64,000 nt of DNA from Artemia franciscana (Eukaryota > Arthropoda > Branchiopoda > Anostraca > Artemiidae): positions 26,784,715-26,848,714 of the forward strand of contig NC_088880.1 in NCBI RefSeq assembly GCF_032884065.1. Direction: 5' to 3'. Made by a program: the position numbers and the translations under genes. Of the stretch, positions 16,801 to 44,770 are shown piece after piece (within the stretch, counting starts at the first letter, position 1; every line of letters starts with the position of its first letter). The notes below the pieces were generated by a model. The model had not been told where the DNA came from. It was given only the letters and a program-made list of their open reading frames with translations, and searched no databases.

Positions 16801-19800
16801 AGGTTATTATCATCAATGGATTGATTGATTATCATCCTCTGACGTATGACGGATATGTCTACCCTGCTTGGGCTAACGTAATGGGTTGGCTTGTGGCTTG
16901 TTCTAGCGTCATGATGATTCCTGGTGTGGCAATATTCAAAATAATCGTCACTCCTGGTACATTGAGAGAGGTAATATTTTATTGTAACTGTTTAATGCTA
17001 TGAAAAAGGCTGCTTTTCAGAAGTATTTCAGGTAAGCTTACAGCTTCCCACATGTTGTAGAAAGCAGTGTAAAATATGACAATTAATCGTTGCTAAGAAT
17101 TCAGAGAAAGTAATTCCATAGAATACCATCTTCATTCCAGTGTCGGTTCTAGCCTCTCTTGCACCCGGGGCAAAATGTTTATTATTGCCACTCTTCTCTT
17201 TCCCCATAAGAACTTTCAGTTAAAACTTTAACAAAAATTTTATTTATTGAGCAATTTATTTTCAATTTATTAGTAAATTAAAATTTATTTTTTATTATTG
17301 TTCAATTTATGAGTTGAATTGTTTAAACATTTAATTGTCATTAATTATTTAAAATTAATTACTCCAATAATTATTATTTAGTCATTTTATATTTTGGATC
17401 TATTTTTATTTTTTATTAGTTAATTGTTTGTTAAGAATTTTTGTATTAGTTAATAGTTTGTTACAGGCAAACAGGCACAGAGAGTGAGAGAGACAAAACA
17501 CGTACAAACACACAGATTCAGAAATACAAACAGACAAAGATAGACACTAGGACAAGTAAACCTCGCTCTAGACACACATTCACAGGGAGTGAAAGAGACA
17601 AAAACACATAAAAACACATAGATTCACACCTACAAACAGACAAAGACATTCACTGGGACAAGAGTGCACTGGTCCAGACACACATGCAGAGAGAGTGAGA
17701 GGGACAAAAACAAATACAGGACAGACAAATTCAAACATACAAAAAGACAAAAACAGACAATGAAACCAGCGAAACCCACCCAGACACACAGGCACAGAGA
17801 GTTAGAGAGACAAAAACACACAAACTTACAGATTCAGGCTTACAAACAGACAGACAGACGCTGGGACGAGCAAACACACACCCAGATATAAAGGCACAGA
17901 AAGTGAGAGAGACAAAAACACATACAAACGCACATATTCAGACATACAAACAGACAAAGACAGACACTGGGAGAAGCAAGCACCCGCCCAGACACGCAGG
18001 CACAGAGAGTGAGAGAGACAATAATACATGCAAACACACCGATTCAGACATAAAAAAGACAAAGACAAACACTGGGACAAGCAAACACCTGCTTAGACAC
18101 ACAGGCACGGTGAGAAAGACAAGCAAACAGTCGGTTAATTTCTACCTGCACCCGGGTAGCTGCACACATATTCGTGTTTTTGTCTCAAAATCAAAGATAT
18201 GTTTTTTGTCTCTCTCACTCTCTGTGTCTGTTAGTCTGGGCAGGTGTTTGCTTGTCTCAGTCTCTGTCTTTGTCTGTTTGTATGTCCGAATCTGTGCGTA
18301 TGTATATGTTTTTGTCTCTTTTACTCTACGAGCCTGCGTGTCTAGGCGGGTGTTTGCTTCTCCCACTGTCTGTATTTGTCTGTTTGTATTTCTGAATTTG
18401 TGTGTTTGAATATGTTTTTGTCTCTCTGACTTTCTCTACTTGTGAATCTTGGCGGGCGGTCGCTTGTCCCAGTGTCTGTCTATGTCTGTTTATATGTCTG
18501 AAAGTATCATAGTAATTGATACTTTCACCTAGATAAACCCATTAATTTACATCATTTTCAGTCCATTTTACACCATTTCAACATCAATTAATTATGTTAG
18601 GTAACCAAATTTGGTCTCATTTTTATAACTTTTCACAATGTAAAAACGGGCTCTAGACACCACCTAGATCATCTCATAAATTTACCCCCCCCCCTTTTCA
18701 ATTGAAATCACACAATTTTAAATTACAAGTTCCGACATTTCTGCATTTTGTCGGATCCTGAGCTTAAAGATCGATACGGATCTTGTAAAATAAGAATTTT
18801 AGATGTAATTTTTAAAAATAGTTTAATTATATTTCATTCTTTCTATACTACCGATGAAATGTAATAATTTAATATGTAGTAGATAGTTCGATATGAATAT
18901 CTAAATAATTCATGTTATCTTCGTTTTTTCGTTCAATAGCCTTTAAAATCATACCTTTATCTAATTTTTTAAATTTCTCTTCAAGATCAGCTGCTTTAGA
19001 ATCAAAACGCTTAGGTGCAATTACATCAACCATTCCACCTTTAAGATCAATAGTAATAACGAGTTTATTTCCATGTTTAGTTGTAACACATTTCATTCCT
19101 GTAATCACATTCTAAGACTACATTGTCTAAGTGAAGTATGAAACAAAGAAAGAAAAGGATATAATAAATGAAAAATAAAATCAAATAGGTGAAAAAACGA
19201 AGGTCTTTTGAGCCAGTAGCAAAATATGAAGGGGAAAATCAGGCAAATGTTTCGATAAGGATCTCCGCCATGTCGTCCTCAGTGCTAGAAAAAAAAACAG
19301 CCAAATCTAACCTTCCGAAGTGAATTGTACACGAGGAGAAAATACACTGAATCAAGAAACCAGCTAAAGATCAATGAGAGAGAATTTACCAATTATTTAC
19401 AAATTAGAGAAATATTCTGCTTGCGCAGATTATAAAACTTTGGAAATTGACACAACAGTGACGCTTGTACGTCTTTGCAGCAAGTTCTCATTGTATTTTA
19501 TGTCTCGAGAAAAATTTTCCTTCAGATCAAGGGCCTACCGATGGGCTCTGTTTTGTCTCCTTTTTTGGCCAATTTTTATATAGAATTTATAGAATAATCT
19601 TACCTTAGGTACAAATAAATCAACCATTCCACCGATAAAATCAATAGTAATAACGAGTTTATTTTCATATTTAGTTGTAACGCATTTCATGCCTGTAATC
19701 ACGTTCTAAGACCGCTTAGATTCCGTAAGAATATGGTGGATTAATTTTATCTGCCTTATCATGTACCATTTTACACTCTTATGTTTCAAAAGGCAATGTG

Positions 19801-22800
19801 AAACATTTATAAAACAAAGTGTTCATTTTGTTGACCGAATGATTAACCCATTAAAATGACGACTAGCAGTATATCTCTTTTTAATTTTTATTAAAGATGT
19901 GTCATATATTTTAAAAATAAAGATTAAAAATATTGTTCATAATCAGGAGGGATACACTTTAGTTTTTTTCCGATTTTTCAGTACAAACTCCAAAAAGTAT
20001 TTCTCAAATATAGAGGGGGGTAAAACCTCCCAGCTGGTAAACCTGTTTGTAGTTACAGAAGACACCGACGCATCAAAGTTACATTTGAGCGACATATATA
20101 GGAAAACCATATTGGGTTACCACCCTGGTTACCATATGTTACCAAGAAAGAAGACACTTGGTAAAACAGCTTGGCATTTGGGTAATTGGTTGTAGAATGC
20201 CACAAGACTAAATCTGTTAAAAATAAACTGCTCAAATCTAAAAAAAAAAATATATTTTGAAGTTTTTAAAGTTGTTTCCTTTTAAGTGTAGGTGGCCCAT
20301 TCGCATAAGTTATGAACTTGACTAACTTAACTTTTGAGTCTCTTGTATATATAATCAATCACTTCTATTATGTTGTATAATCAGCAAATCATTTTTTCCC
20401 AAGACTTTTCCTCTAAAATTTCACTTTGTTTGTCTTTTTTAGCGTATCAAATTTCTAACAACTCCATGGCGTGACATTCGTCCGGCTTGTGAGCTTGTGC
20501 TTATAAAAAAGAATGGCCATTCGCTTCAGGGGAAAGTACTTGAAGGTAAGCCATACTTTCAAATTTCTCTCTCCTAATAGATACGCTGCTCTCAATAGTT
20601 TCCAGACCAACTCTGTAATTGCCAATATTGGAGCTTACTGTATCAGTCGGCAAAGGGTGGGGCATACGTTCATTTACAATTTAGAAATAATTTTGTTTCT
20701 TGTGTGAGTGTTATTTACTAATTCTTGTTTTACTGCGTGATTTAAAGACTGGTATCTTATTTAATTAAATTCGCGTCACCCTGTAGGCTACTATGAATAC
20801 ATAGTTTTGAGTTTAAGTTTAATTGAGCACTTTTTTAAACATTTGGTGTGGCGTCAAAACGTGGATTTCACAACTCTATTCGTATGATGGTCAACTTAAC
20901 ATGCTGTTTCACAAACTTTTATCATATCGATAATATAAAACGTTTTAAAGTAGGAAATTATAGTAAGCCTTATAACCTAAGTAAATACAAATTGCTTCAA
21001 TAATGAGATCGTTTAGAGTTTCAAGTTGATGTGTTTTGTATATTTTTTTGTTAACAAATGTGTATTTGACACCTCTTTTGGTGTGAACCAGTACTCCTTC
21101 TCTCAATGGATATTAATAGGGAGGGGCTATTTACCCTTTGAGAATATTCTGCATTGTGGCAACATCTTTAGTCTTAAGGCTAAAAATGTTTTTTGCTGTA
21201 ATGCAATTTTCTGCTAAATCAATAGAGATTCTTGGAACATTAGAACTTCTAGTTTCCACTCGAATGAGTGCTTTTTCATTTCTCTGGAGTCTTTGGTTAA
21301 ATGTGATCATCATTGGGAAAATAGAAAAATAAATAAGCTGGCATCAGTGATCCTTCTTCTGGGGAAAAAATGAAAAACTTCCTGTTTTGTAGATAGGAGC
21401 TTACTTTATATGCTGGATTATATTATATATAATAAATATATATATATTTGGAATCAATATGGAATCAACAGATTTTTAATGCTAAGATTGTGAAGGACGA
21501 GAAGCGTTTTTTAAATTTACTTAAAGCTCCTTTTGGAGGTGTTTTGTCCTATTTTGAAAATGGAGCCAATTTCCTAAAGCTTTTTTCTTTTGTTGGGCAA
21601 TTCTAAACTTAATTTTATGTGTTCAAAGCCAGCATAAAAATTCAATTTCGTTAGATCGGTTTTCATTAACCTCAGTCTTTCTTTACTTACAGTCCGTTAC
21701 CACGAACTGTTTAATAGTATGAGGATATTACTTTATTTTTTCTTCCAAGCTTTAACTTCAAGTTCATTTTAGTTTTTCCTGATTACAATCAAACTATCAA
21801 GCAGTGAAAATCTAATCAATCGATAAATAAAACAGAAACTGCGAGACAAAAATAATTTGAAGGATAGAACAATCCTTTAAAGGGGTAAAAATAAAACAGA
21901 GGTGTAGTTAGGGTTATCATTGCCCAGGGACAATGTCGCCCCTCCCCTCTCCACCGTTACTATCACAATTTAAGTAAATCATAGTACTGACATTAAGAAT
22001 TCGGTGTAACCCTCAGAGGCTGTGCCGCGGTGACAACCGTCTTCATTGCTCCCCTGGCTATTTGAGTGCAATAAGGACAAGAGACAAAAAATGCACAAAT
22101 AAAAATACTTGGTTAAAACCAAAAGTATAAATAAGAGACACCTATATTAAGATACTAGAGACATGTACAGCCATATATTAGAGAAAATCTATGTTCAGAT
22201 ACATTACGAAAATATTAAACTAAGCTAAAGCTAAACCTTTTTCAGTCCGTTAGATTTTAGCCTAGCTTTGATTGGTAACCATTTTAGGGACTTCTTTTCT
22301 TAAGCCTTCTCTGTAGTTACATCCAGTGCTTGCGTAATTTCTTAATAAGATAGTTTGCGTAATTGCTTAATAAGGCAACATTCCCCAAACATTAAGATTT
22401 GCCTTCAGTGCCCTTGCCACCTTGAATAATTGTAATTGGATTATAATGACCTGGAAATTCTGGCTTGGGAATTTGCGAGCTCTCAGACATATGTTTGCTA
22501 TAAATTTCAAAAGGATTTCCTGAAGTCCTTCTAAAGGACTCAGAAGGACTCAATTTGGACTCAAAAGGAGTGCCTCCATTAAAAATAAACACCAACTATC
22601 TTTAAATTAATTTAGAACAAGTGGTAACTATTTTAGAGTTACCACTATTTCTATAGTTACAGGAGAAATAAAACAAACCAAGTCATTTACACATCATCAC
22701 GTGAACTTTGCTAGGTGTCTTTCTCCAGGTTACCTAAGTCTAATCTGAAATGATCTGCAAAGCTAATAATAAGTCTTTAGACATCAAACTGGGCCTACAT

Positions 22801-23769
22801 TTTAAAATAAAGTTAATCGTTAAAATAAAACGCTATTACAAACGTAAAACGGTTAGTCAGCCCAAGAAACTTAACTTGTTCTTAGTTATACAATACAATA
22901 ATAAAACATTGAAGAAAACGCTAAGAATTTTAAAGTCCAGTTTTCGCAACAAAAGAATTCATTGCTATTCTTCATCAGCTTCATAGAAAAGCTCTTACAT
23001 CTTTGAATCGTACATCTTCAAACTGAAGATCTACAGAGGTGGTCAAACGGTATTTTGATGTTGGAAAACTCTCTGAATAGCAAGCATGTATATAGCCACG
23101 TCTTAGCCTAAAACGTCTTAGTGAAAAATGAAATCTGATTGATCAAACTGGCCATATACATCTTTGAAAAATTAGTAAAAACTGAAAGAAGAAGTACAGA
23201 TAAAAATAAGCGAAACAAGCTAACAATATATGGCATCAAAATGCTGAAGAAGCAGGGTCTTCCCTTTGAAGATGTAGTTATATTTGGGATTCTTAGGAAT
23301 CAAGATATTTTTAATGCTAAGATTGTGAAGGACGAGAAGCCTTTTTTTAAATTTACTTAATTAATTCCGATATTTTGTTTTCTTGGTTCAACATCGCATC
23401 ACTGACAAAATGAGATACTTCCCTAGAAACCCCATAACTTTGAAACAAAAGCGAAGTAAAAACTGAGAAAATCATGGTTTTCAGGTATGAATAGATGTAA
23501 GGTGATTACAGTGAACAAAAAATGTTTCTATTTTCCTATCGTTATTACTCTAAACAGGTTTTTAGATGGGGACAACATTATTACGTTTTGTGCACCTACA
23601 AAACGAAAAGTAAATTACACAGTTTAATATCAGCACTATGAACCTTACTTAACCTATATTTGCAGATGGTGAAGCGGAGTGTCCTCAAGGCAAAGAGCTC
23701 TCCAGAGAACATGTGGTCGTGTTGACCTATAAAGACTTGAATTGTGACATGGAAAAAGTTGATGTTTGA
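4705..23769 (+). CDS. SLC6 neurotransmitter:sodium symporter, C-terminal part (GlyT-like)
   Basis: Four exons, 4705-4805, 16803-16970, 20443-20545 and 23666-23769, splice in frame (phases 1, 0, 0, 1) to the last 158 residues of an SLC6 transporter, which couples uptake of an amino acid or amine to Na+ and Cl-. The first exon gives the loop after TM10 ([17 protein letters not shown]) and the start of TM11. The second gives the rest of TM11, the [16 protein letters not shown] entry to TM12, and ends TPGTLRE. The third opens [14 protein letters not shown]. The fourth ends in KVDV and a TGA stop. All junctions are GT-AG. The GIERF...MIGFKP pattern is closest, from memory, to glycine transporters; the substrate remains open without TM1, TM3, TM6 and TM8, which lie upstream of the window. 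A poly(A) signal is at 23975. The last two exons recur at 33991 and 37235. Intron sizes are 11997, 3472 and 3120 bp. Confidence 0.9.
5539..5677. repeat. Small inverted repeat
   Basis: Around 38-bp imperfect arms: acagcaaatagcaagtagaa at the left and its reverse complement ttctacttgctatttgttgc at the right, separated by about 65 bp. It is probably the remnant of a miniature foldback element. Confidence 0.6.
6218..6271. repeat. 27-bp tandem direct repeat, two copies
   Basis: The unit aaaagttaaacaattctagg plus aaatatt is present twice head to tail with no mismatch that I can see. Perfect identity suggests a recent slippage duplication. Confidence 0.85.
6406..6475. repeat. Short degenerate tandem repeat ccgttgacaacat
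   Basis: The motif accgttgacaacattcaa recurs three times and a fourth degenerate time (acctgacaacgttta), with a period of about 18 bp. Confidence 0.7.
7600..8880 (-). repeat. Degenerate ~270-bp tandem array, minus orientation
   Basis: Roughly four units, each with the same landmarks in order: gattggag/gatcggg, ccacaccc, agccatt, aaaggtct..tatgtctttgaggatg, ccagggttg, ttatgcccc, catataagg, tcattgg. The landmark catataag falls near 8256, 8524 and 8799, giving a period of about 270 bp. The reverse complement matches the array at 14540-15870, so the same family lies in both orientations. There is no reading frame across units. It is best explained as a non-coding module of a transposable element. 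Confidence 0.75.
8890..9211. repeat. Foldback/MITE-like element with ~72-bp inverted ends
   Basis: The left end aatagccaaactcaaaacga and the right end that closes with tgagtttgacttggctatt are reverse complements over about 72 bp with scattered mismatches. Shared inner landmarks are gagtagg, ctgataacccc and ctcaagac. The centre of about 170 bp has no ORF. The 'gataacc' part also occurs at the border of the element at 12699-14280, so these are probably related families. Confidence 0.75.
9212..9385 (+). repeat. Solo end of the 12.7-14.3 kb foldback family
   Basis: The stretch ttccttttgagtttttattt ... gcttaatggagctttctact ... tttggaaacaattttttaaa parallels the right end of the element at 14180-14290 (gttttgagttttaat ... 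gtttaatatggccttttact ... tcagaaaattatttttaaat). It is diverged and single-ended. Confidence 0.5.
9386..12378. other. SLC6 intron, mid part; no gene seen
   Basis: AT-rich intronic DNA with homopolymer runs (G near 9693, C near 11900) and a stretch of degenerate 'attgca' motifs at 11290-11420. I found no coding or RNA-gene signature on either strand. Confidence 0.5.
12379..12560 (+). repeat. Short tandem repeat, aaaatcaaacaaaatggcct
   Basis: The units aaaatcaaacaaaatggcctc and aaaatcaatcaataaaaaaa alternate several times with a period of about 38-68 bp. The apparent 70-codon ORF over it is only a translation of the repeat. Confidence 0.8.
12699..14280. repeat. 1.6-kb foldback element with internal inverted tandem arrays
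   Basis: The ends are inverted copies: ccgaaaaagaagtttttcaa and aaagtaaaggccat at the left, and atggccttttacttttctat and gaaaaacttctttttcag at the right. Inside, an array of ~180-bp units at 12780-13110 (tttattcatttatattagt read on minus) is mirrored by about three units at 13690-14205 on plus. The spacer 13130-13690 holds two direct copies of a 'gaatatttgat.tataat.atatt' module. A single relative of the spacer and array lies at 48880-49130. There is no ORF, so this is a non-autonomous element. Confidence 0.75.
14540..15870 (+). repeat. Degenerate ~265-bp tandem array, plus orientation
   Basis: About five units with landmarks gccctccgatc, ttttgactcttaaaa, gtgaactag, caatttccaatcaaatgagcc, gaagtttatacga, ccttccatatgaacc, gcataactta, gcctgcccc, tctgacctt.aactattttta, acaaaatggctatctcaaaa. 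The landmark ctgcccc falls at about 14815, 15092, 15339 and 15615. It is the same family as 7600-8880 but in the opposite orientation. Units differ at many sites, so the array is old. Confidence 0.8.
15940..16330 (+). repeat. 'gaaaattccccc' module next to the 265-bp array
   Basis: Irregular repeats of gaaaattcccc, gaggaaaattt and similar directly follow the tandem array. The reverse complement of the same module is at 58650-58800, again beside a copy of the array unit, so the two modules travel together as parts of one transposable element. Confidence 0.6.
16560..16685. repeat. Degenerate 'ggtaacttggtaac' repeat
   Basis: Several copies of tggtaac and tggtaacaatgatggtaac, including the local palindrome ttggtaacaagttaccaa. 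It ends about 120 bp before the SLC6 exon at 16803. Probably simple repeat. Confidence 0.7.
16803..16970 (+). CDS. SLC6 exon: TM11 end to TM12
   Basis: The acceptor ttacttacag ends at 16802 and the donor gtaata starts at 16971. Exactly 56 codons, phase 0 at both ends. It encodes [17 protein letters not shown], then [11 protein letters not shown], which is the conserved (Y)xxPxWxxxxGW signature before TM12, then the TM12 helix, and finishes TPGTLRE. Family membership is clear from this exon alone. Confidence 0.93.
17465..18130 (+). repeat. ~105-bp minisatellite, left arm (plus orientation)
   Basis: About six units carrying aggcacagagagtgagagaga, caaaaacacatacaaac, agattcagacatacaaacag, acaaagacagacactgggac and aagcaaacacc. 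The ggcacagagag-type landmark recurs near 17474, 17583, 17690, 17793, 17895, 18001 and 18107. The Cys-rich ORFs predicted across it in several frames are artefacts of the repeat. Confidence 0.88.
18190..18505 (-). repeat. Same minisatellite, inverted right arm
   Basis: Three units in the opposite orientation (tgtttttgtctctctcactc, gcgggtgtttgcttctccca, tgtctgtctttgtctgtttg), facing the plus-oriented array across a spacer of about 60 bp. The pair can fold into a long imperfect hairpin. The left breakpoint of the 13.5-kb duplication (18242) lies inside this arm. Confidence 0.85.
18504..18529. repeat. Short hairpin gaaagtatca/tgatactttc
   Basis: 10-bp perfect stem with a 7-nt loop (tagtaat), at the border between the minisatellite and the unique-looking sequence. 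The same hairpin is in unit B at about 32042-32070. Confidence 0.75.
18869..19108 (-). CDS. Uncharacterised 79-codon ORF, copy A
   Basis: A complete small frame from ATG at 19108 to a stop, starting [18 protein letters not shown] and ending [10 protein letters not shown]. The middle is lysine/glutamate-rich ([16 protein letters not shown]) and probably helical. No family is recognised. Two facts suggest it was once coding: unit B keeps the same 79 residues, and a diverged fragment of the same frame lies at 19603-19710 with conservative changes. Unit B is too recent to weigh heavily. It sits in an SLC6 intron on the antisense strand beside a reverse transcriptase scrap, so it may be part of a mobile element. 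Expression is unknown. Confidence 0.35.
   Translation of the reverse strand: MITGMKCVTTKHGNKLVITIDLKGGMVDVIAPKRFDSKAADLEEKFKKLDKGMILKAIERKNEDNMNYLDIHIELSTTY
19440..19597 (+). pseudogene. Reverse transcriptase fragment, Penelope-like (copy A)
   Basis: The frame 19523-19594 encodes [20 protein letters not shown] followed by EFIE and a stop. This is the RT motif 'Q..G.PMGS.LSP.LAN.YME.FE' seen in Penelope-like and some other retroelements. Just upstream, in a different frame, [12 protein letters not shown] resembles the preceding 'LLRLC....YF.F' segment, so one frameshift separates them. There is no catalytic FADD segment downstream: a stop follows at once. A dead fragment within the SLC6 intron. 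Confidence 0.65.
19603..19710 (-). pseudogene. Diverged fragment of the 79-codon ORF (A)
   Basis: Read on the minus strand this gives [20 protein letters not shown] and then [10 protein letters not shown], closely matching the first 35 residues of the ORF at 18869-19108, with replacements such as H/Y, G/E and L/F. It is in the same orientation, about 600 bp away. The two copies bracket the RT fragment like direct repeats. Confidence 0.55.
19720..20442. other. SLC6 intron remainder before the penultimate exon
   Basis: AT-rich intronic DNA with no recognised gene. The end shows a good polypyrimidine stretch (tttgtttgtctttttt) before the AG at 20442. Confidence 0.5.
20443..20545 (+). CDS. SLC6 penultimate exon, copy A
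   Basis: Acceptor ttttttag ends at 20442, donor gtaagc starts at 20546. 34 codons plus one base (phase 0 in, phase 1 out). It encodes [20 protein letters not shown] and [14 protein letters not shown], the start of the cytoplasmic tail after TM12. The TLRE/RIK junction with the previous exon matches the usual 'GT..ER....P' tail start of the family. Confidence 0.9.
20546..23665. other. Last SLC6 intron, copy A; repeats and decayed ORFs
   Basis: No host exon is seen between the last two exons. It contains a short (TA)n tract at 21420-21452 and a repeat-like block at 21100-21360. A 60-bp sequence (gatttttaatgctaagattg, tgaaggacgagaagc) is found at 21468-21525 and again at 23302-23355. Two lysine-rich open frames at 22750-22986 and 23139-23360 have no family I know; unit B keeps parts of both. 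Confidence 0.45.
23666..23769 (+). CDS. SLC6 terminal exon, copy A
   Basis: The acceptor tttgcag ends at 23665. The exon completes an Asp codon and encodes [19 protein letters not shown] then [14 protein letters not shown] and TGA. It is a hydrophilic cytoplasmic tail. The last residues, VDV with hydrophobic residues at positions 0 and -2, would fit a class II PDZ ligand (inference). Confidence 0.85.
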
Positions 23770-23974
23770 AAATAATAAAAAAAAGTGTAAGGCAGCTAAC
23801 TGCTAATGTTTTTTTCAACTCGGGTATACGCACGTCAAACTTGGTTTTGTAATGTGTTGTTGCTTATTTACAAATATGCAGTAAGAACCCTTATTAAGCA
23901 GCCATTTAATAAGGGGTCTGTAATTTATCATAATATATATCTCAAGTTCTCATTTTTGTAAACGTTTTTGTGTT

Positions 23975-23980
23975 AATAAA
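23975..23980 (+). promoter_or_regulatory. AATAAA poly(A) signal, SLC6 copy A
   Basis: Canonical hexamer about 205 bp after the stop codon, followed by a GT-rich stretch (cactggtgac, ttttagtgtctatt). An earlier AATAAA overlaps position 23777, only a few bases past the stop, and is less likely to be used. Confidence 0.6.
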
Positions 23981-25591
23981 CACTGGTGACAAGGATTTTA
24001 GTGTCTATTCCCATCTAACGCATCAGCAGTTGAAAAGCCATTGAGAGGATTTCTGACCCCCCCCCTAAAATACAAAAGATAAGGGATTAACATTGGTTAC
24101 ATTTTAATCCACATCCTCTCCTGAAATAATTACTTATTCTTCACACACACAAAAAAATTGTTCAACTCAACTTGGCTGTACAAATTCATCATGTATAAAG
24201 TTACAAGATATTAATTATACAAGTGAGTAGAAATACTGTGTTTGGGCATTTCTTATAACATCTTTTAGTAGGTTTTCTTAGCCACCACAAATATGCCAAC
24301 AATTTTGACAGCAAATTATTCATTTATTTAAGTTTGTCTTGGAATGAAGCAAGGTTAGTTTAACGAAAAATATTACAAAATGCCTGTAGAAATACTACAT
24401 TCAAATTGTTCTTCTATATTTAAATATTTCCTTGTGAGAAACAAACTGAGTTTCATTTTACTTCTTCTGTTTCAGTTTGAAAAACAAATTAAAGAAATTC
24501 AATAGATAATATAGCCAACCCCGTACGCTTCGCAAGTCACAGGCTGGCTGTAACTTACCTAATGCACAACAGTCTATGCAGGACTACCATTCACACCTTT
24601 TCTGGAATAATCCTAAAATAGTTTTCTACTGATGTTTATGCTTTTTTAAGCACTTATTTGCAATTGCTAGTATCGTTCAGATCAGTGAGGTATGCAATAG
24701 CAGGAATATCGCGGCCCACGCTCCATTTATGTCCGTTTCACCAAGTTTTTGTTATTTTTTGACAAAGAACAAGCTAAATTTCATTTCAAATATTGATATG
24801 GTTGATTAGCTGTCCTCTCTTATCTGGTGACCTTGGGTTGCAATTTCACATGCACACGATATAATTCCTTATTTTAAACTATAAGATCAAATGCCTCTGT
24901 TGCCAAACTTTTCAATAATCTTATCCAAGAAAATATGACCGGTTCGTCCAGTCCGTTCCCTTTTCTCTATTTGGTTTTCAAGCGATCTTTTACTTGTATA
25001 AACCGAAAAGATCTCTTTATCTTAAAATCAAGAACAGTAAAAAAAAATTGAGACTTTCGCATCTTTTTTTTTCAAGGTCCAGTGAAAGATTTTCTTGTTA
25101 AAATAGCTATTCTTTAATAAAAACCAAAAAATGTAAAATGTGTTCTTTAGCGTTACGTCTACCCAATCTATAGCAAAATCTGAGCTGCAATTATTTTCCT
25201 TTTCACATTTTTTTTTATTGTTTATTGTTTTCGCTGCTGCTTTCATTGTTTTATTCTCGTTTGTTTTATAAAGTTCATTTGTATGATTTTTCTACGTTTT
25301 AAATATCAAAAACCTTGCTATTAACTGCCACAGCGTTAACAGTATTTTTTTTCCGTGGCTTCCGTAATACGTAATTTTTTTCCAAAATGATCTTCTCAAG
25401 AAATAATAAGACTATCCTTTTAAAACTGATTTTCCTTGAGTAAATATGATACATTTAATTTCAACTATTTCGTTAATATTCAAGTTCAGTCTGGATAGCC
25501 GCCATGGTTTTGTTTGTAGCAGCTGGTTATGGTTTAAACGTACCGAACAACGGTTTGACAGTTAGTTTGAGTGCAGTTTATTGTGGTTAAG
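23981..25591. other. Intergenic DNA, unit A; no gene
   Basis: AT-rich sequence with C homopolymer near 24058 and T-rich runs near 25060-25240. Nothing coding is recognised. Confidence 0.5.
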
Positions 25592-25883
25592 TTAGCTTAA
25601 AGATAAACAATCTGAGTTCGGAAATAATCTATTGAACGTCGGTAAATGATTGATATTATTAAAATCTTTAATAGGACGGACTGGTTTGATGTTCTCTGCA
25701 CACCCTCTTATGTTGCACACCCTCTGGTTTGATGTTAGAATAAAATTGGACGTGGTGATTCTAATTTCTCGTTCAATGTTAAGTTTCGAGCGATACTTAC
25801 TGTTTATTACTGGGACAGCCGAAAAGCCAGATTCACACAAATATGGCGCTTCAAATGGAACTAATATTTGTAGAGCTTTACTC
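25592..25883 (-). pseudogene. hAT transposase C-terminal remnant (ZBED5-like), copy A
   Basis: On the minus strand the frame reads ALQILVPFEAPYLCESGFSA, then INSKYRSKLNIE. This matches the hAT C-terminal dimerisation region in the ZBED5/SCAND3-type lineage ('L.PF.T.Y.CE.GFSAL..IKSKYR.RLN'). It is preceded by an in-frame TGA near 25875 and no DDE catalytic part is visible, so it is a decayed 3' end of a transposon. Confidence 0.7.
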
Positions 25884-26520
25884 CCTCAAGCTGAGGATTT
25901 TATTTCTTATTGATATACAAAAATCAGGAAGTTTCCTGCTACCAAATTTTGTCTTCCGTAAATGTCACAAGACGGCTCAATAAGAGATTCTTATTCTAAA
26001 AAAGTAAATTCTGACGGCTCGATATTTTTCAAAATTTCTGCTTGAAAGTAATTGTCTAACCTTATGTTAACCTGTGATAGGTGATCTACAAAAACAAATT
26101 TCACAATGAAAAACAAAGTAATTTCATTGGAGGTTACACACTGGTACAACAGGCGAAAAAGATCATTCATGCTGTTTTCAATAGTAATTTTTAGTTTCTA
26201 TAGCTCTATTTTTTTTAAGCCAATTTCTTTTCTTTGTTTTTAAATATGTATACTACGTCTTTGTAAGAAGATACCATATTCAACTTTTCAAATATTTTAC
26301 ACTAGTATTCAACTTGAGTGAAAAAATCTATTTCCACAAGGTGTTTCGTTTACTCATGCTTTTCTTTTTCAAGGAAAGTATGTATTCCTTGCTATATCTG
26401 GAATATATGAGACAATATACCCCTACGACACAGCTAGTGTAAATGGTAGTGGTCAGAAGTGCTTGTAAAGTTGATTATATTTACTGTATATCTACAGCCA
26501 TCTTTAGTCGAGGACTTGTA

Positions 26521-26634
26521 TATGTTTTCCGCTCTCATCTCGAATATGCATGTCTTGTTTGGAACCTTCGTCATTTTAGGTATGAGTTACATAAAATGAA
26601 ATCTATTATACATAATATACAATCTATAAAAGGA
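26521..26634 (+). pseudogene. LINE-type reverse transcriptase C-terminal scrap
   Basis: The frame encodes YVFRSHLEYACLVWNLRHFR then YELHKMKSIIHNIQ, the 'RPHLEYA.PVW.P......I..IE.VQ' segment after the RT fingers/palm of Jockey/CR1/RTE-type non-LTR elements. Only about 38 residues remain. Unit B keeps the part after CLVWN only, because its 400-bp deletion cuts through this motif. Confidence 0.65.
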
Positions 26635-26639
26635 TAGGT

Positions 26640-27847
26640 TAGAAACGCTTGTGTCCAGGAGAGGTATGTAATGCCTCTTTTTTTACACTCAATAAATACA
26701 ATGACAAAGCCTCGGACTAACAACATTTTTTCCAAAGAAACTTCCCACATAGATTCCGCCCTCCTACGACCCCTTCTCCGCCTGTTTTTCTCTTGTTCTC
26801 TGCTGTACTTCTAGATAGAATATAACTTATGTCACTACTGTTGCGAAAAAATCAACAAAATATCACCGTAATCTTTCTCATTTTATTGTTTTTACAAAGG
26901 TGGCCCAAATAAATTCAGTTTCCAATTCAGCAAATTTAAAATTAAAAGTTATAGCACCCATAAAAAGGCTTGAAAGTAGATGTAAGTGCAAAAGCCCCCC
27001 TCCCATTCCTCTGTTTCCAAGCTCTGTTTCTAAACCAGATAGGTTGGTCTTATTCAAAATCATAAAGTGATTCTGATTGATTTCAAGCACAGATTGTTCT
27101 TGGAACAAAATAGATGTTAATGAGTTGGGAAGCAAAAATCAACAGAAGGGAAATTTCTAAAAGTTGAGTATGGGGTCACTTTTCCTTAAAAACTGATTAT
27201 TGATATGATAAGCAATCAACTGATTGCGCGATTTATTTGTAATTGGATGAATTTTCATTTTAAGTAATTGGTGCTTTACTTTTGAGTTTTATTTTTATTC
27301 TTTGCCATTTCGTCACTTTGTCATTTCATTTATTTTTATTCTTTGTAATTGATGTTTATTCTTTATCATTTTAAGTAATTTATTTATGAATTGGTTGTTA
27401 TTCCGACAGTTTTATTTTGAATTCATTTGCCAATTATTTTTAGCACCTATATCACTTTTTAAATTTACTCTTTTTCAATTAACTTTAGCACTTTATCACT
27501 TTTTCTCTCTCTATCATTTTTGATTATCGATGTAAAACAAAAATCCGTATTTTCGTGAAGCTTTTCGCTGTTCGGAACCCTCACCACTAATTTGTGAAAC
27601 ACCCTATCTAGGCTTAGCACCTTCTTGATTATTCATGTTTAATAAAAATTTGACAACAATAGATACTATCTACTGTTGTGATTTTTTTGTTTCGGTTACT
27701 ATTGAGCCGAATCGCTGTTTTCTTGTAGTTCGTTATCACAAGCTGTTTGATTAGCCAACAAACCTTGCAAAACACTCTCTCTGAAAGGGGAAGGATGGAG
27801 GGAAGGGACATAACTTCACGGCCACTTCGCATGGTTAAAGTCCTGTA
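26640..27847. other. Intergenic DNA, unit A; no gene
   Basis: AT-rich. It contains degenerate 'tttatcattttaagtaatt' repeats at 27250-27510. No coding or RNA gene is recognised. Confidence 0.5.
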
Positions 27848-34093: not shown

Positions 34094-37000
34094 GTAAGCC
34101 ATACTTTCAAATTTCTCTCTCCTAATAGATACGCTGCTCTCAATAGTTTCCAGACCAACTCTGTAATTGCCAATATTGGAGCTTACTGTATCAGTCGGCA
34201 AAGGGTGGGGCATACGTTCATTTACAATTTAGAGATAATTTTGTTTCTTGTGTGAGTGTTATTTACTAATTCTTGTTTTACTGCGTGATTTAAAGACTGG
34301 TATCTTATTTAATTAAATTCGCGTCACCCTGTAGGCTACTATGAATACATAGTTTTGAGTTTAAGTTTAATTGAGCACTTTTTTAAACATTTGGTGTGGC
34401 GTCAAAACGTGGATTTCACAACTCTATTCGTATGATGGTCAACTTAACATGCTGTTTCACAAACTTTTATCATATCGATAATATAATACGTTTTAAAGTA
34501 GGAAATTATAGTAAGCCTTATAACCTAAGTAAATACAAATTGCTTCAATAATGAGATCGTTTAGAGTTTCAAGTTGATGTGTTTTGTATATTTTTTTGTT
34601 AACAATGTGTATTTGACGCCTCTTTTGGTGTGAACCAGTACTCCTTCTCTCAATGCGTATTAATTGGGAGGGGCTATTTACCCTTTGAGAATATTCTGCA
34701 TTGTGGCAACATCTTTAGTCTTAAGGCTAAAAATGTTTTTCGCTGTAATGCAATTTTCTGCTAAATCAATAGAGATTCTTGGAACACTAGAACTTCTAGT
34801 TTCCACTCGAATGAGTGCTTTTTCAGTTCTCTGGAGTCTTTGGTTAAATGCGATCATCATTGGGAAAATAGAAAAATAAACAAGCTGGCATCAGTGATCC
34901 TTCTTCTGGGAAAGAAATGAAAAACTTCCTGTTTTGTAGATAGGAGCTTGAAACTTTTATAATAAGGTTCTTTTATATGCTGGACTATATTATATATAAT
35001 ATATATATATATATATATATGTAATCAATATGAAATCAACAGATTTTTAATGCTAAGATTGTGAAGTACGAGAAGCGTTTTTTAAATTTACTTAAAGCTC
35101 CTTTTGGAGGTGTTTTGTCCTATTTTGAAAATGGAGCCAATTTCCTAAAGCTTTTTTCTTTTGTTGGGTAATTCTAAACTTAATTTTATGTGTTTAAAAC
35201 CAGCATAAAAATTCAATTTCGTTAGATCGGTTTTCATTAACCTGAGTCTTTCTTTACTTACAGTCCGTTACCACGAACTGTTTAATAGTATGAGGATATT
35301 ACTTTATTTTTTCTTCGAAGTTTTAACTTCAAGTTCATTTTAGTTTTTCCTGATTACAATCAAACTATCAAGCAGTGAAAATCTAATCAATCGATAAATA
35401 AAACAGAAACTGCGAGACAAAAATAATTTGAAGGATAGAACAATCCTTTAAAGGGGTAAAAATAAAACAGAGGTGTAGTTAGGGTTATCATTGCCCAGGG
35501 ACAATGTCGCCCCTCCCCTCTCCACCGTTACTATCACAATTTAAGTAAATCATAGTACTGACATTAAGAATTCGGTGTAACCCTCAGAGGCTGTGCCGCG
35601 GTGACAACCGTCTTCATTGCTCCCCTGGCTATTTGAGTGCAATAAGGACAAGAGACAAAAAATGCACAAATAAAAATACTTGGTTAAAACCAAAAGTATA
35701 AATAAGAGACACCTATATTAAGATACTAGAGACATGTACAGCCATATATTAGAGAAAATCTATGTTCAGATACATTACAAAAATATTAAACTAAACTAAA
35801 GCTAAACCTTTTTCAGTCCGTTAGATTTTAGCCTAGCTTTGATTGGTAACCATTTTAGGGACTTCTTTTCTTAAGCCTTCTCTGTAGTTACATCCAGTGA
35901 TTGCGTAATTGCTTAATAAGATAGTTTGCGTAATTGCTTAATAAGGCAACATTCCCCAAACATTAAGATTTGCCTTCAGCGCCCTTGCCACCTTGAATAA
36001 TTATAATTGGATTATAATAACCTGGAAATTCTGACTTGGGAATTTGCAAGCTCTCAGACATATGTTTGCTATAAATTTCAAAAGGATTTCCTGAAGTCCT
36101 TCTAAAGGACTGAGAAGGACTCAATTTGGACTCAAAAGGAGTGCCTCCATTAAAAATAAACTCCAACTATCTTTAAATTAATTTAGAACAAGTGGTAACT
36201 ATTTTAGAGTTACCACTATTTCTATAGTTACAGGAGAAATAAAACAAACCAAGTCATTTACACATCATCACGTGAACTTTGCTAAGTGTCTTTCTCCAGG
36301 TTACCTAAGTCTAATCTGAAATGATCTGCAAAGCTAATAATAAGTCTTCAGACATCAAACTGGGCCTACATTTAAAATAACGTTAATCGTTAAAATAAAA
36401 CGCTATTACAAACGTAAAACGGTTAGTCAGACCAAGAAACTTGGCTTGTTCTTAGTTATACAATACAATAATAAAACATTGAAGAAAACACTAAGAAATT
36501 TAAAGTCCAGTTTTCGCAACAAAAGAATTCTTTGCTATTCTTCATCAGCTTCATCGAAAAGCTCGTACATCTTTGAATCGTACATCTTCAAACTGAAGAT
36601 CTACAGAGGTGGTCAAACGGTATTTTGATGTTGGAAAACTCTCTGAATAGCAAGCATGTATATAGTCACGTCTTAGCCTAAAACGTCTTAGTGAAAAATG
36701 AATTCTGATTGATCAAACTGGCCATATACATCTTTGAAAAATTAGTAAAATCTGAAAGAAGAAGTACAGATAAAAATAAGCGAAACAAGCTAAAAATATA
36801 TGGCATCAAAATGCTGAAGAAGCAGGGTCTTCCCTTTGAAGATGTAGTTATATTTGGGATTCTTAGGAATCAAGAGATTTTTAATGCTAAGATTGTGAAG
36901 GACGAGAAGCGTTTTTTAAATTTACTTAATTAATTCCGATATTTTGTTTTCTTGGTTCAACATCGCATCACTGACAAAATGAGATACTTCCCTTGAAACC

Positions 37001-37234
37001 CCATAACTTTGAAACAAAAGCGAAGTAAAAACTGAGAAAATCATGGTTTTCAGGTATGAATAGATGTAAGGTGATTACAGTGAACGAAAAATGTTTCTAT
37101 TTTCCTATCGTTATTACTCTAAACAGGTTTTTAGATGGGGACAACATTATTACGTTTTGTGCACCTACAAAACGAAAAGTAAATTACATAGTTTAATACC
37201 AGCACTATGAACCTTACTTAACCTATATTTTCAG
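34094..37234. other. Last SLC6 intron, copy B; repeats and decayed ORFs
   Basis: Counterpart of 20546-23665. The (TA)n tract near 34990-35020 is longer than in A. At 36446-36628 a frame stays open where A has a TAG (tcatcg versus tcatag). Confidence 0.5.
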
Positions 37235-37338
37235 ATGGCGAAGCGGAGTGTCCTCAAGGCAAAGAGCTCTCCAGAGAACATGTGGTCGTGTTGACCTATA
37301 AAGACTTGAATTGTGACATGGAAAAAGTTGATGTTTGA
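37235..37338 (+). CDS. SLC6 terminal exon, copy B
   Basis: The acceptor attttcag ends at 37234. Same frame, same 34 residues and the same TGA as 23666-23769. The one coding difference I find is GGT to GGC at the first Gly, which is silent. Confidence 0.75.
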
Positions 37339-37543
37339 AAATAATAAAAAAAAAGTGTAAGGCAGCTAACTGCTAATGTTTTTTCAACTCGGGTATACGC
37401 ACGTCAAACTTGGTTTTGTAATGTGTTGTTGCTTATTTACAAATATGCAGTAAGAACCCTTATTAAGCAGCCATTTAATAAGGGGTCTGTAATTTATCAT
37501 AATATATATCTCAAGTTCTCATTTTTGTAAACGTTTTTGTGTT

Positions 37544-37549
37544 AATAAA
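37544..37549 (+). promoter_or_regulatory. AATAAA poly(A) signal, SLC6 copy B
   Basis: Same hexamer and downstream context as at 23975, about 205 bp after the stop of copy B. Confidence 0.55.
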
Positions 37550-39134
37550 CACTGGTGACAAGGATTTTAGTGTCTATTCCCATCTAACGCATCAGCAGTT
37601 GAAAAGCCATTGAGAGGATTTCTGACCCCCCCCCCTAAAATGCAAAAGATAAGGGATTAACATTGGTTACATTTTAATCCACATCCTCTCCTGAAATAAT
37701 TACTTAACTCAACTTGGCTGTACTAATTCATCATGTATAAAGTTACAAGATATTAATTATACAAGTGAGTAGAAATACTGTGTTTGGGCATTTCTTATAA
37801 CATGTTTTAGTAGGTTTTCTTAGCCACCACAAATATGCTAACAATTTTGACAGCAAATTATCCATTTATTTAAGTTTGTCTTGGAATGAAGCAAGGTTAG
37901 TTTAACGAAAAATATGACAAAATGCCTGTAGAAATACTACATTCAAATTGTTCTTCTATATTTAAATATTTCCTTGTGAGAAACAAACTGAGTTTCATTT
38001 TACTTCTTCTGTTTCAGTTTGAAAAACAAATTAAAGAAATTCAATAGATAATATAGCCAACCCCGTACGCTTCGCAAGTCACAGGCTGGCTGTAACTTAC
38101 CTAATGCACAACTGTCTATGCAGGACTACCATTCACACCTTTTCTGGAATAATCCTAAAATAGTTTTCTACTGATGTTTATGCTTTTTTAAGCGCTTATT
38201 TGTAATTGCTAGTATCGTTCAGATCAGTGAGGTATGCAATAGCAGGAATATCGCGGCCCACGCTCCATTTATGTCCGTTTCACCAAGTTTTTGTTATTTT
38301 TTGACAAAGAAAAAGATTAAATTTAATTTCAAATATTGATATGGTTGATTAGCTGTCCTCTCTTATCTGGTGACCTTGGGTTGCAATTTCACATGCACAC
38401 GATATAATTCCTTATTTTAAACTATAAGATCAAATGCCTCTGTTGCCAAACTTTTCAATAATCTTATCCAAGAAAATATGACCGGTTCGTCCAGTCCGTT
38501 CCCTTTTCTCTATTTGGTTTTCAAGCGATCTTTTACTTGTATAAACCGAAAAGATCTCTTTATCTTAAAATCAAGAACAGTAAAAAAAATTTGAGACTTT
38601 CGCATCTTTTTTTTCAAGGTCCAGTGAAAGATTTTCTTGTTAAAATAGCTATTCTTTAATAAAAACAAAAAAATGTAAAATGTGTTCTTTAGCGTTACGT
38701 CTACCCAATCTATAGCAAAATCTGAGCTGCAATTATTTTCCTTTTCACATTTTTTTTTTATTGTTTATTGTTTTCGCTGCTGCTTTCATTGTTTTATTCT
38801 CGTTTGTTTTATAAAGTTCATTTGTATGATTTTTCTACGTTTTAAATATCAAAAACCTTGCTATTAACTGCCACAGCGTTAACAGTGTTTTTTTCCGTGG
38901 CTTCCGTAATACGTAATTTTTTTTCCAAAATGATCTTCTCAAGAAATAATAAGACTATCCTTTTAAAACTGATTTTCCTTGAGTAAATATGATACATTTA
39001 ATTTCAACTATTTCGTTAATATTCAAGTTCAGTCTGGATGGCCGCCATGGTTTTGTTTGTAGCAGCTGGTTATGGTTTAAACGTACCGAACAACGGTTTG
39101 ACAGTTAGTTTGAGTGCAGTTTATTGTGGTTACG
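37550..39134. other. Intergenic DNA, unit B; no gene
   Basis: Counterpart of 23981-25591. A stretch of about 24 bp (cacacaca-type) present in A near 24140 is missing here near 37705. Confidence 0.5.
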
Positions 39135-39426
39135 TTAGCTTAAAGATAAACAATCTGAGTTCGGAAATAATCTATTGAACGTCGGTAAATGATTGATATT
39201 ATTAAAATCTTTAATAGGACGGACTGGTTTGATGTTCTCTGCACACCCTCTTATGTTGCACACCCTCTGGTTTGATGTTAGAATAAAATTGGACGTGGTG
39301 ATTCTAATTTCTCGTTCAATGTTAAGTTTCGAGCGATACTTACTGTTTATTACTGGGACAGCCGAAAAGCCAGATTCGCACAAACATGGCGCTTCAAATG
39401 AAACTAATATTTGTAGAGCATCACTC
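39135..39426 (-). pseudogene. hAT transposase C-terminal remnant, copy B
   Basis: Counterpart of 25592-25883. The frame from CESGFSA onward is unchanged, but the segment before it has extra substitutions (for example Tyr to Cys before LCESGF). Confidence 0.65.
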
Positions 39427-39695
39427 CCTCAAGCTATGGATTTTATTTCTTATTGATATCCAAAAATCAGGAAGTTCCCTGCTACCAAATTTTGTCTTCC
39501 GTAAATGTCACAAGACGGCTCAATAAGAGATTCTTATTCTAAAAAAGTAAATTCTGACGGCTAGATATTTTTCAAAATTTCTGCTTGAAAGTAATTGTCT
39601 AACCTTATGTTAACCTGTGATAGGTGATCTACAAAAACAAATTTCACAATGAAAAACAAAGTAATTTCATTTGAGGTTACACACTGGTACAACAG

Positions 39696-40989
39696 TCTTG
39701 TTTGGAACCTTCGTCATTTTAGGTATGAGTTACATAAAGTGCAATACTATACATAATATACAATCTATAAGAGGATATCTTAGAAACGCTTGAGTCCAGG
39801 AGAGGTAATGTAATGCCTCTTTTTTACACTCAATAAATACAATGACAAAGCCTCGTACTAACAACATTTTTTCCAAAAGACACTTCCCACATAGATTCCG
39901 CCCTCCTACGGCCCCTTCTCCGCCTGTTCCTATCGTGTCTCTTGTTCGCTGCTGTACCTCTAGATAGAATATAACTTCTGTCACTACTGTTGCGAAAAAA
40001 ATCAACAAAATATCACCGTAATCTTTCTCTTTTTATTGTTTTTACAAAGGTGGCCCAAGTAAATTCAGTTTCCTATTCAGCAAATTTAAAATTAAAAGTT
40101 ATAGCACCCATAAAAAGGCTTGAAAGTAGATGTAAGTGCAAAAACCCCTCCTATTCCTCTGTTTCCAAACTCTGTTTCTAAACCAGATAGGTTGGTCTTA
40201 TTCAAAATCATAGTGATTCTGATTGATTTCAAGCACAGATTGTTCTTGGAACAAAATAGATGTTTATGAGTTGGGAAGCAAAAATCAACAGAAGGGAAAT
40301 TTCTAAAAGTTGAGTATGGGGTCACTTTTCCTTAAAAACTGATTATTGATAAGCAATCAACTGATTGCGCGATTTATTTGTAATTGGATGAATTTTCATT
40401 TTAAGTAATTGGTGTTTTACTTTTGAGTTTTATTTTTATTTTTTGCCATTTTGTCACTTTGTCATTTCATTTATTTTTATTCTTTGTAATTGATGTTTAT
40501 TCTTTATCATTTTAAGTAATTGATTTATGAATTGGTTGTTATTCCGACAGTTTTATTTTGAATTCATTTGCCAATTATTTTTAGCACCTATATCACTTTT
40601 TAAATTTACTCTTTTTCAATTAACTTTAGGACTTTGTCACTTTTTCTCTCTCTATCATTTTTGATTATCGATGTAAAACAAAAATCCGTATTTTCGTGAA
40701 GCTTTTCGCTGTTCGGAACCATCACCACTAATTTGTGAAACACCCTATCTAGGCTTAGCACCTTCTTGATTATTCATGTTTAATAAAAATTTGACAACAA
40801 TAGATACTATCTACTGTTGTAATTTTTTTGTTTCGGTAACTATTGAGCCAAATCGCTGTTTGCTTGTAGTTCGTTACCACAAGCTGTTTGATTAACCAAC
40901 AAACCTTGCAAAACACTCTCTCTGAAAGGGGAAGAATGGAGGGAGGGGACATAAATTCATGGCCACTTCGCATGGGTAAAGTCCTGTAC
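39696..40989. other. Intergenic DNA, unit B; truncated LINE scrap, no gene
   Basis: It begins at the deletion junction acaacag/tcttgtttgg, so only the end of the LINE motif (LVWNLRHFR...) is left. The remainder matches 26553-27847 and has no recognised gene. Confidence 0.5.
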
Positions 40990-41231
40990 AGTTAAAATGG
41001 GGAGTGACATTAAAACTTAAACTAACAAATATTATTCCGTATATGAAAGGGGTTGTCCCCTGCTCAACGTCCCGGTCTTTACGTTAAAGTTTTTTATTGT
41101 TGTAAAAGAAGAGTTGTGAGAAAGAGTCAAACTTTAGCGTAAAGAGTGGGGCGTTGAGGAGGGGTCAGCCCCTTTCATATAAGGAACAATTTATGTTCGT
41201 TTTAAGTTTACTGTCGCTCCATACTCTAGTT
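40990..41231. repeat. Foldback MITE, copy B
   Basis: Counterpart of 27848-28090, with the same inverted ends and a few substitutions (for example gagagcgac versus ggggagtgac). Confidence 0.75.
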
Positions 41232-42836
41232 AAAACAATATTTGTTTTTTATTTAATCACTTAAAGAGAGCAATGGAACTTTCGGTTGCCGATCAAATTA
41301 ACTCTCTCTGCCGATCATCTAGAATAACTCAATCAATATAATCAGTCCTTAAAAGAGGATTGAACTTGCATCCATAATCTTCCCTCTAGTCAAAAATACA
41401 AATTTCCACATTATATATTAGAACTTGGAACTTCTACAATTCGGTTTCTGGATCTGATAATACGAATTCTAGTAAGATTTCTTGACTTTTGGAAGGGATG
41501 TCTAGTTACTTTGAAAATCAGGCCAATTTTCTTAGGCTCTTCGCCATAGATGGGTGACATTAAATTTACCAAGCTTTGAATATTTTGAATCAAAATGAAA
41601 TTCGTTTCCTTTTATGTATCTATTAAGCCTCAGCACTGTTTCTATTTTCATAAATGCAGAAACAGAAAAAAAAAATGGAAAAAAAAAAAACAGTTTTGTC
41701 GAAACCTAGTGACCTGTCTTCTGTTCTGTTTTTTTTTGGGGGGGGGGAACAGAAAACAGCTGTTTTTATATAAAAAAAAAGACCAGCATTTTTTTTTCAT
41801 TTTTGCTTGCCTTCCTCTTTTTTAGGATGTCACGCTCCGTGAGCTTCGACCCAATATCCGGGAAACTATAAACAGATACCCTGCCATCTATTAAATTCTC
41901 ATAAAGGGTGAAGAAACCACCTTGAAACCATCCCGAATTCACTAATCCATCTCTTTTTCAATCGACCACATGTACATAGGATACAGCTCCGACCGCATCA
42001 GCGGTATTAACGCCTATTAGAAGACCTGGGTACAGCACGATTTCGCTCTTGCCACCTCAGGATCCTGAACAACAGAGTATGAAATAAGAGTAAAAAACTT
42101 TTCTTTTAAATATAAAAACACAACAAGTTTTAATGGAATGGAAAATAAACTGCGCTATGATTCTCTACTAACTTAAATTATTGCCCTATGAGCAATACAT
42201 TTTTATCCAACCAGATCGAAAATTTAAACTTCCTCCTTAGTAACAAATGTAAGCTTTGAACTTGTCACTTAGAAACGTACGAATGGCTCAGTTACCTTAA
42301 TGAACGACAAGTCTGGTAAGCGGAATCGCAGAAGGTTGAAAAAAACACTTTGAATTGGGGCTATTGATCTCAATTTACGTAAAGGGCACTGACTGTAAGC
42401 GCAATTTTTCAAATGAACTGTCAATCGCCTCTCTATGACCATCTAGTAATCTGCCAGCCTTTGGGAAAAAGAAGTAAAAGTAGAAAAAAGAAAAAGGGGA
42501 TACATTAGTGCTATCCATTTTAAATGCTTTCCCGGCAGAAATTTTTTTTCCAGCATTTAATTTTGAGCATAAAACTTTGATTTTATGCTCAAAATTTACA
42601 TTGAAGTTTAACATGGAAAATAGTTGGCATTTCTGAATACCAGCATTAAACATTTTTTACGTAAAATAATGTTTCGAAAAACACATTTCTTTCGGGTATT
42701 ATGGGCAAAGATTCATCTTTACTAGGTTGAAGCTACTGCTTCATCAAAAATATATGAAATTCATTGAATAAAAACACTGATAAATCTCTCTTGAGATGAT
42801 ACCACCTTTTCTATGATACTAAAAAGAAGACTGAAG
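41232..42836. other. Intergenic DNA, unit B; no gene
   Basis: Counterpart of 28091-29923 lacking the 233-bp segment: the sequence ggatgtcac joins gctccgtgag directly near 41830. Confidence 0.5.
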
Positions 42837-42912
42837 TGCTCAGCCTTATGTTAGCACAGTTGGTTTGACCTTAGATTGGTAATGCGGGATCCAGAGATGG
42901 AACCCAGCTATA
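42837..42912 (+). repeat. tRNA-derived SINE head, copy B
   Basis: Counterpart of 29924-29998, with an A-box-like tagcacagttgg and a decayed B box. Confidence 0.55.
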
Positions 42913-44108
42913 GCAAACATACAATAGGCCCAGCACAGGGACCTTATTAGTCAAGAAGCCTCACTAATCTGATCACTTACTCCGAAGTGCTTAAAGTTTA
43001 GGGCGTGAATTAAAGTATTGGAATAAATCTCTTCGCCATGGAATAAATCCCTTTTAGTTTTGCCTGTGATTTGTTGCTCAATTGGCTGTACTTAGATGGG
43101 TGCGTATTTTAAGTCTCTGAAGTAGTTGCATGTGTCACTTGCCATAAAGAGCCTCATATAAATTTGCTAGTTACATAATACTCACAAGACGTGCGCTTTA
43201 TCGTCTCTGACGGATTGAGCACAAGTGCAGAACTGTTCAAACCAATGTGATTCTTTGCTCCTTCCATTTGATGACCCTTGGGTAACAAAATAACTGGGGC
43301 TAAGAAGATAGTCAAAGTGGTCAAAAGGCAGCTCTCTTCGGGACTTAAAGAAAAAAAAAATAAGCGTCACTTGATTTCTGTCTAGTCTAACGGCATCTAT
43401 GACACTGATCTATTGTTTCAAATTAGCCATTTTCAGGGTTGCCAAAGGGACACTTTTAGTGCTTTTTTGACACTTGTTCACTCTGGGTGACACCATGCCA
43501 CTATTGAGAAAAAAAAGCAACTTTTTGAAAAAAAAGGACACTTTTTGGCATTTTTTCAAAATTAGTGCAATATGTATTTATTTTCAGTTTTTTCTTAACT
43601 GCAACTGCTTTTAATTCGTGCTTTGTGCTTTTCAAGTTTGTTCTCGTCTTAGAGATTTTTTTATTATCGTATCCACAGTACTTTCCTTTTCAAAAGCGCG
43701 AAAATTCAAACGGGGTGAAACATGTGATTTGCTCAAGAGAGTTTAGAAAAAGTTTTTTTGATAAAAAACTGAAGCAAGCATATAACTGCTGGTAAGTAAA
43801 AGCTTAAGGTGTTTTATGACTTGTAGTCTACAGGGGTATACAGAGGTGCAGTCTTGATAGTAGTTAATAGCAAACTATCTGATCCTCATCCGATTTGCTG
43901 CTGCTTAATCATTTTTGGACGAGGGTGAACCTCAACAGGTTCTTCCCAAAGTCAACCTAATGGACACACGATTTTCGTTTTTTGCGTGTTTGGGGGGGGG
44001 GTGACACGGGGCCCGATCCAAACACGCAATAAAAGAACTATGCGGCTTTTTTGTGTGTTTTTTAGGTGAACTTCACGAAATTTTCAAGTATACTTGAAAA
44101 TCCCACTC
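42913..44108. other. Intergenic DNA, unit B; no gene
   Basis: Counterpart of 29999-31198, including the G-run hairpin at about 43982-44029. No gene is recognised. Confidence 0.45.
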
Positions 44109-44305
44109 AAGTTCTCACACCATATGACCGGGGGACCTATCTAAACTTTCAAATATTCTGGAAAAATGAGCAGGTTCTCACGCCGTGTGACCGAGGGACC
44201 TATCTAAACTTTCAAATATAGTGGAAAATGAGCAGGTTTTCACGCCGTGTGACCGGAGAACTTATCTAAATTTTCAAATATACTAGAAATATGAGCAAGT
44301 TCTCA
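44109..44305 (+). repeat. ~62-bp tandem repeat, three units (B)
   Basis: Counterpart of 31199-31395, nearly unchanged. Confidence 0.85.
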
Positions 44306-44319
44306 CGCTAGCGAAACGA

Positions 44320-44770
44320 CCCGGGTTGCCGGGCCCTGGAGTCTCTTGGACCGCCCTCTGGATGCTTTTTGGGCCCCTACGATCCCTCTAGGTCAGCTTA
44401 GGTCGCCCTGAGAATGGTCTAAGACCTTTTTGGGTGGCAAGGGACCGCACTAGGGAGCCCCTAAAGTGGTTCTCCTAAATCATCCCCAGGACCCTAGAGC
44501 GATCCCAGGCATCCCCGGGACCACTCTAGGGCCCTTTTGAGTGCCCTGGGACCGCATTAAGGCTCCCCCTAGAGTGGTCCTAGTTTCCCCTAAAGAAACC
44601 CTAGATCCCTAGAGCCATTCCAGGCCCCTCTGGGACCGCTTTAGAGAATTGTCGGGTGCCCTGGGACCGCTCAAGTGCTCCTACAGCGGTATTAGGTGCC
44701 CCTAGCACTAGGACTAGGGGCACTAGGACTAGGAATGGTCCTGGGTTCTCCTGGCACTAGGACTAGATAT
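44320..44770. repeat. GC-rich degenerate 'ccctagg' block (B and right flank)
   Basis: Matches 31410-31783 up to 44693, then continues as unduplicated sequence with cactaggactagg repeated four times to about 44767. This is the original right edge of the duplicated segment. Confidence 0.7.

Follow-up and report, generated by a model that had tools for sequence, protein, structure and literature searches.

A 13.5-kb head-to-tail repeat gives a dopamine-transporter-like SLC6 gene of Artemia franciscana two sets of terminal exons: a probable microhomology-joined tandem duplication

How does a transporter gene come to have one body and two complete sets of final exons? The question is posed by 64,000 nucleotides of the Artemia franciscana genome (RefSeq assembly GCF_032884065.1, contig NC_088880.1, positions 26,784,715 to 26,848,714, forward strand; hereafter the window, whose own numbering is used throughout). 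A sequence-only reading had proposed that a 13.5-kb tandem duplication here carries the last two exons of an SLC6 transporter gene. The duplication was confirmed, with coordinates now exact to the base. Self-BLAST of the window, restricted to matches longer than 200 bp with E values of 1e-10 or less, gave two head-to-tail copies in the same forward orientation: unit A at 18242..31783 (13,542 bp) and unit B at 31784..44698 (12,915 bp, including 5 bp shared by the boundaries). The match of 18242-31788 to 31784-44698 comprises three collinear pieces of 95.2-97.8% identity, gaps counted, and a third copy within the window was not detected by the same search. An arrangement of this sort, two collinear copies head to tail with a single novel junction, is what defines a tandem segmental duplication. 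The earlier reading had also proposed aligning the units in full. Global alignment showed an identity of 98.1% across 12,847 aligned bases. The units differ by 243 unevenly spread substitutions (1.89%; 136 transitions and 107 transversions), at a Kimura two-parameter (K2P) distance of 0.0192, and by 45 internal insertion/deletion (indel) events; a 46th gap, the 5-bp terminal overlap, was left out of this count. The largest indels, of 400 and 233 bp, are both stretches present in A only. Neither resembles a transposon insertion, as their edges share just 1 and 3 bp; elsewhere in the window they have a single weak 36-bp match.

The two units meet without a gap. At the A/B junction (31774..31798), the right end of the unit is fused exactly to its left end, with the 5 bp AGGTG (31784-31788) common to both: the left boundary reads CTGGGC-AGGTG-TTTGCTT (shared bases from 18242), the right boundary GGTATT-AGGTG-CCCCTAG (from 44694) and the junction GGTATT-AGGTG-TTTGCTT. 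Owing to these shared bases, unit B can be taken to end at either 44693 or 44698. In 200,000 random draws each, at least 5 bp were shared by chance in 0.87% of position pairs across the window; the share was 0.37% when the pairs came from the two boundary regions. Comparison of the 2-kb boundary regions revealed no long homology, the best match having an E value of 0.14 (13-18 bp) and the longest extending over 31 bp at 77% identity (E 0.49). Short identity at a junction without long flanking homology is the pattern by which microhomology-mediated rearrangement is recognised.

Both breakpoints lie in repetitive DNA. The left one, in the second-to-last intron of the SLC6 gene, sits in the right arm of two inverted arrays of a 106-bp satellite (17464..18502; arms at about 17464-18129 and 18197-18502, about 70-90 bp apart). 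Folded as DNA, positions 17833-18502 gave -215.3 kcal/mol against a mean of -82.9 for 20 shuffles (z -24.5), so that the satellite at this breakpoint is predicted to form a strong hairpin. The right breakpoint, in the DNA between the SLC6 gene and the gene for electron transfer flavoprotein-ubiquinone oxidoreductase (ETFDH), falls within a GC-rich repetitive block (44310..44767, limits set by eye). A GC block had been noted at the unit end before, and it is indeed there: after A it stops at 31783 and after B it runs on to about 44767, the outcome expected of a tandem duplication.

The gene itself was missed by a motif scan for SLC6 and was found by local tblastn with SLC6 fragments, followed by reading onward from one of the exons so located. 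Two exons, both on the forward strand, lie outside the duplication: one for the TM11 region (4705..4805), with a split first codon, AG/GT borders and a match to dopamine transporters in the PDB, and one for TM12 (16803..16970), likewise with a PDB match, which ends in TPGTLRE and in phase 0, 1.3 kb before the duplication starts. No 15-mer of either recurs within the window, where each is therefore single-copy. The intron between them holds more inverted and tandem repeats at 12686-15846, among them one array of 161-bp period. Each unit then supplies, on the same strand, two exons for the C-terminal tail. In unit A, the penultimate exon (20443..20545) starts in phase 0 and ends in phase 1, and the last (23666..23769) carries the stop codon; a presumed 3' untranslated region (3'UTR, 23770..24000) follows, with AATAAA at 23774 and 23975, the latter motif placing its end. 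Their counterparts in unit B lie at 33991..34093 and 37235..37338, with AATAAA at 37343 and 37544. The AG/GT splice borders, reading frame, stop codon and AATAAA signals are intact in both units, bearing out the two terminal exons and poly(A) signals per unit proposed earlier. The claim that both exons differ at one silent site needs correction: this is so for the last exon (1 of 104 positions, T/C at 23670), while the penultimate exons are identical (0 of 103), as are the presumed 3'UTRs across 230 aligned positions. The encoded A and B peptides are thus the same, and single TM11 and TM12 exons followed by two sets of tail exons make up one gene body with two protein-identical 3' ends.

The assignment to SLC6 also stands. 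Joined together, the four exons match the Pfam SNF family (PF00209) with 84.4 bits, against a cut-off of 27. The model is matched up to its position 522 of 524, which corresponds to residue 82 of the joined exons; Pfam yielded no match in unit A in any of the six frames, a probable reason being that the tail exons fall past the end of the model. Among the best 60 of 73 matched PDB sequences, a dopamine transporter set came first (145.5 bits), followed by the noradrenaline transporter (109 bits) and a second dopamine transporter set (93 bits). We take the first set (e.g. 4xpb) to be the Drosophila protein and the second, presumably, to be human. On sequence grounds, this is a dopamine-transporter-like SLC6 gene, closest among solved structures to the dopamine transporter. 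The likeness to that member of the SLC6 monoamine branch covers 102 residues, in which TM11, TM12 and the start of the C-terminal tail, reaching into the penultimate exon, all align; the difference is that only four exons of the present gene were found within the window, those for the substrate site not being among them. Pfam detected no further SLC6 exons in the three forward frames of 1-4700, and an SLC6 core fragment had no credible tblastn match in the window.

A 5-bp junction, the lack of long homology and a hairpin-forming satellite and GC-rich block at the two ends fit a microhomology-mediated duplication rather than one by non-allelic homologous recombination (NAHR), and the gapless microhomology junction favours a real join in the DNA over an artefact. 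We judge it about two-thirds probable that this is a real, simple 13.5-kb head-to-tail tandem duplication, joined at microhomology, that left one gene body with two terminal exon sets. A break or stalled replication fork at the inverted satellite and the GC-rich block would have been its starting point, and the broken ends would then have been joined through the 5 bp, by end joining or by template switching during replication; according to passages in PMC4056370, a junction of this kind hardly separates the two. A single molecule of the animal would then carry both units, and splicing would normally be expected to lead into unit A, where transcripts would end. If so, unit B would be a redundant spare.

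The divergence between the copies puts this explanation under strain. Substitutions are clustered, as the earlier reading had suggested: their index of dispersion is 3.36, 4.98 and 6.42 in bins of 250, 500 and 1000 bp, above all permutation maxima (1.68, 2.07 and 3.19; 2000 permutations each), and a two-state hidden Markov model (HMM) outperforms a one-state model by 31.6 log units. The model places high-divergence blocks of 3.4-4.6% at 21071-21750, 25835-30136 and 31609-31783, against 0.7-1.3% in the remainder. These blocks hold 21 of the 45 indels, an excess that is not significant (p 0.12). The 204-bp stretch singled out previously (22392 versus 35963) has exactly the seven substitutions counted by eye; the worst stretch of that length, from 28446, has 15. 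At the other extreme, the longest identical run (533 positions) surrounds the penultimate exon, a length above the 95% permutation mark (443) and below the 99.9% mark (633). Exons and 3'UTR together differ at 1 of 437 positions, a value as low as this arising in 3.6% of circular shifts; the corresponding figures are 18% for the exons alone (1/207) and 10% for the 3'UTR alone (0/230). At most, this hints mildly that constraint acted on both copies during much of the time since they separated, as it would on alleles.

Several of these points weigh against a simple duplication. The 1.9% divergence, strongly patchy and accompanied by 45 indels, resembles that between two alleles of an outbred animal; near-identical exons and 3'UTR are mildly odd for a neutral spare; and repeats, in which both breakpoints fall, are also places where assemblies break. 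The same features speak for a heterotype false duplication, in which A and B would be the two haplotypes of a single 13.5-kb locus that the assembler placed one after the other, and we regard this as the foremost competing explanation, though a clearly less probable one. Passages in PMC9516828 lend it plausibility: 4-16% of older vertebrate assemblies was falsely duplicated, in part within exons, and gapless joins between false copies can arise by wrong gap filling. Against an artefact, the window contains no N bases and no gap, an overlap of 5 bp is, as a matter of general knowledge, too short for an assembler to use, and a blind join would share this many bases in only 0.4-0.9% of cases. The Drosophila copy-number variants (CNVs) with which the junction is compared below offer a loose comparison, since they were mostly small and tandem duplications made up only 2 of 50 insertions, according to parts of PMC4056370.

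Patchy, allele-like divergence may also mean that A and B descend from two alleles that were brought together in a real event. The copies would have differed already when joined, by exchange between homologous chromosomes, and most of the 1.9% would be older than the duplication. We consider this possible, with a chance of perhaps one in four. The HMM blocks and the conservation of exons and 3'UTR in both copies argue for it; however, gene conversion after the duplication, or uneven mutation, would give the same picture, the indels show no significant excess in the diverged blocks and the exon test is weak. In its fullest form, the arrangement would have been 'born heterozygous', exchange between diverged homologues having placed two old 3'-end alleles in tandem so that one chromosome carries both and may use both, an idea that we hold still more tentatively. 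As this is a sub-case of a real duplication, its likelihood is contained in that of the duplication and overlaps with it.

That selection has preserved both sets of terminal exons as functional alternative 3' ends is improbable. Retention of splice sites, frame, stop codon and two AATAAA signals in both sets, and the scarcity of differences between them, are in favour of this reading, but the same peptide and presumed 3'UTRs without substitutions leave selection little to choose between, and recency or, as the shifts of the exons alone indicate, chance would give low divergence too. NAHR between flanking repeats, suggested by the repeats at both ends, is very unlikely, since it calls for long homologous repeats at both ends, and the boundary repeats are unrelated, with 5 bp in common at the breakpoint and just short matches nearby.

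Other features of the window were also recorded. Within the units, a reverse-transcriptase scrap at 19460-19594, copied in unit B, upholds the earlier mention of transposon scraps by a weak match to Pfam RVT_1 (E 0.003; 17.8 bits, below the cut-off of 29.6); by eye, it may be Penelope-like. Nearby, on the minus strand, 18872-19111 is an 80-aa open frame whose start recurs at 19538-19705 and whose one weak match is to an OB fold (E 0.12, below cut-off). Downstream of the duplication and outside it, the next recognised gene is ETFDH, represented by a forward-strand exon at 52064..52216 that was identified from its sequence and borders and from a match to PDB 2gmh (E 1.3e-14). Pfam matches in the six frames of 44699-59697, which also bear on that exon, were confined to one frame and were all to FAD/NAD-binding families, below cut-offs. 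Towards the end of the window (59200-64000), nested direct and inverted arrays of a minisatellite (TGTCCCGGTCGTCATTTATA...) are accompanied by T-rich tracts and long runs of (AT)n; a pair with a period of 376 bp is 99% identical. Scans of the window with Rfam at the gathering threshold and for tRNAs at the bacterial setting gave no matches.

The structure is of a known kind, whether it is a real duplication or an artefact. As a real event, it would offer a clean partial gene duplication, resolved to the base, at a satellite predicted to form a hairpin, in which the origin of such copies and the possible decay of a redundant 3' end could be studied on a small scale. As an artefact, it would mean that the assembly holds uncollapsed haplotypes that would cause a monoamine-transporter-like gene to be mis-annotated. 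Among the literature matches listed, there was neither a dopamine-transporter case of such partial duplication nor a parallel for duplicated final exons beside an intact copy. Even so, two sets of terminal exons are less unusual than was first supposed, as young gene duplicates are often partial: as quoted in passages of PMC3449122, partial copies made up 63% of the spontaneous gene duplications that could be detected in mutation-accumulation lines of C. elegans, and 76% of the duplications segregating in D. melanogaster lines. In those systems, too, one gene end is copied together with flanking DNA, and the present case is no different in kind. The breakpoints also have their counterparts, since the commonest class among Drosophila CNVs (41%) has simple ends and microhomology of at least 2 bp, and the breakpoints are enriched in non-B DNA; median sizes there are tens to hundreds of bp, with 13.5 kb far larger (all from parts of PMC4056370). 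Heterotype false duplications, as described in sections of PMC9516828, resemble this locus in their two adjacent copies, allele-like divergence and extra exons for a gene; the Artemia repeat differs from them in having no assembly gap and a precise 5-bp junction.

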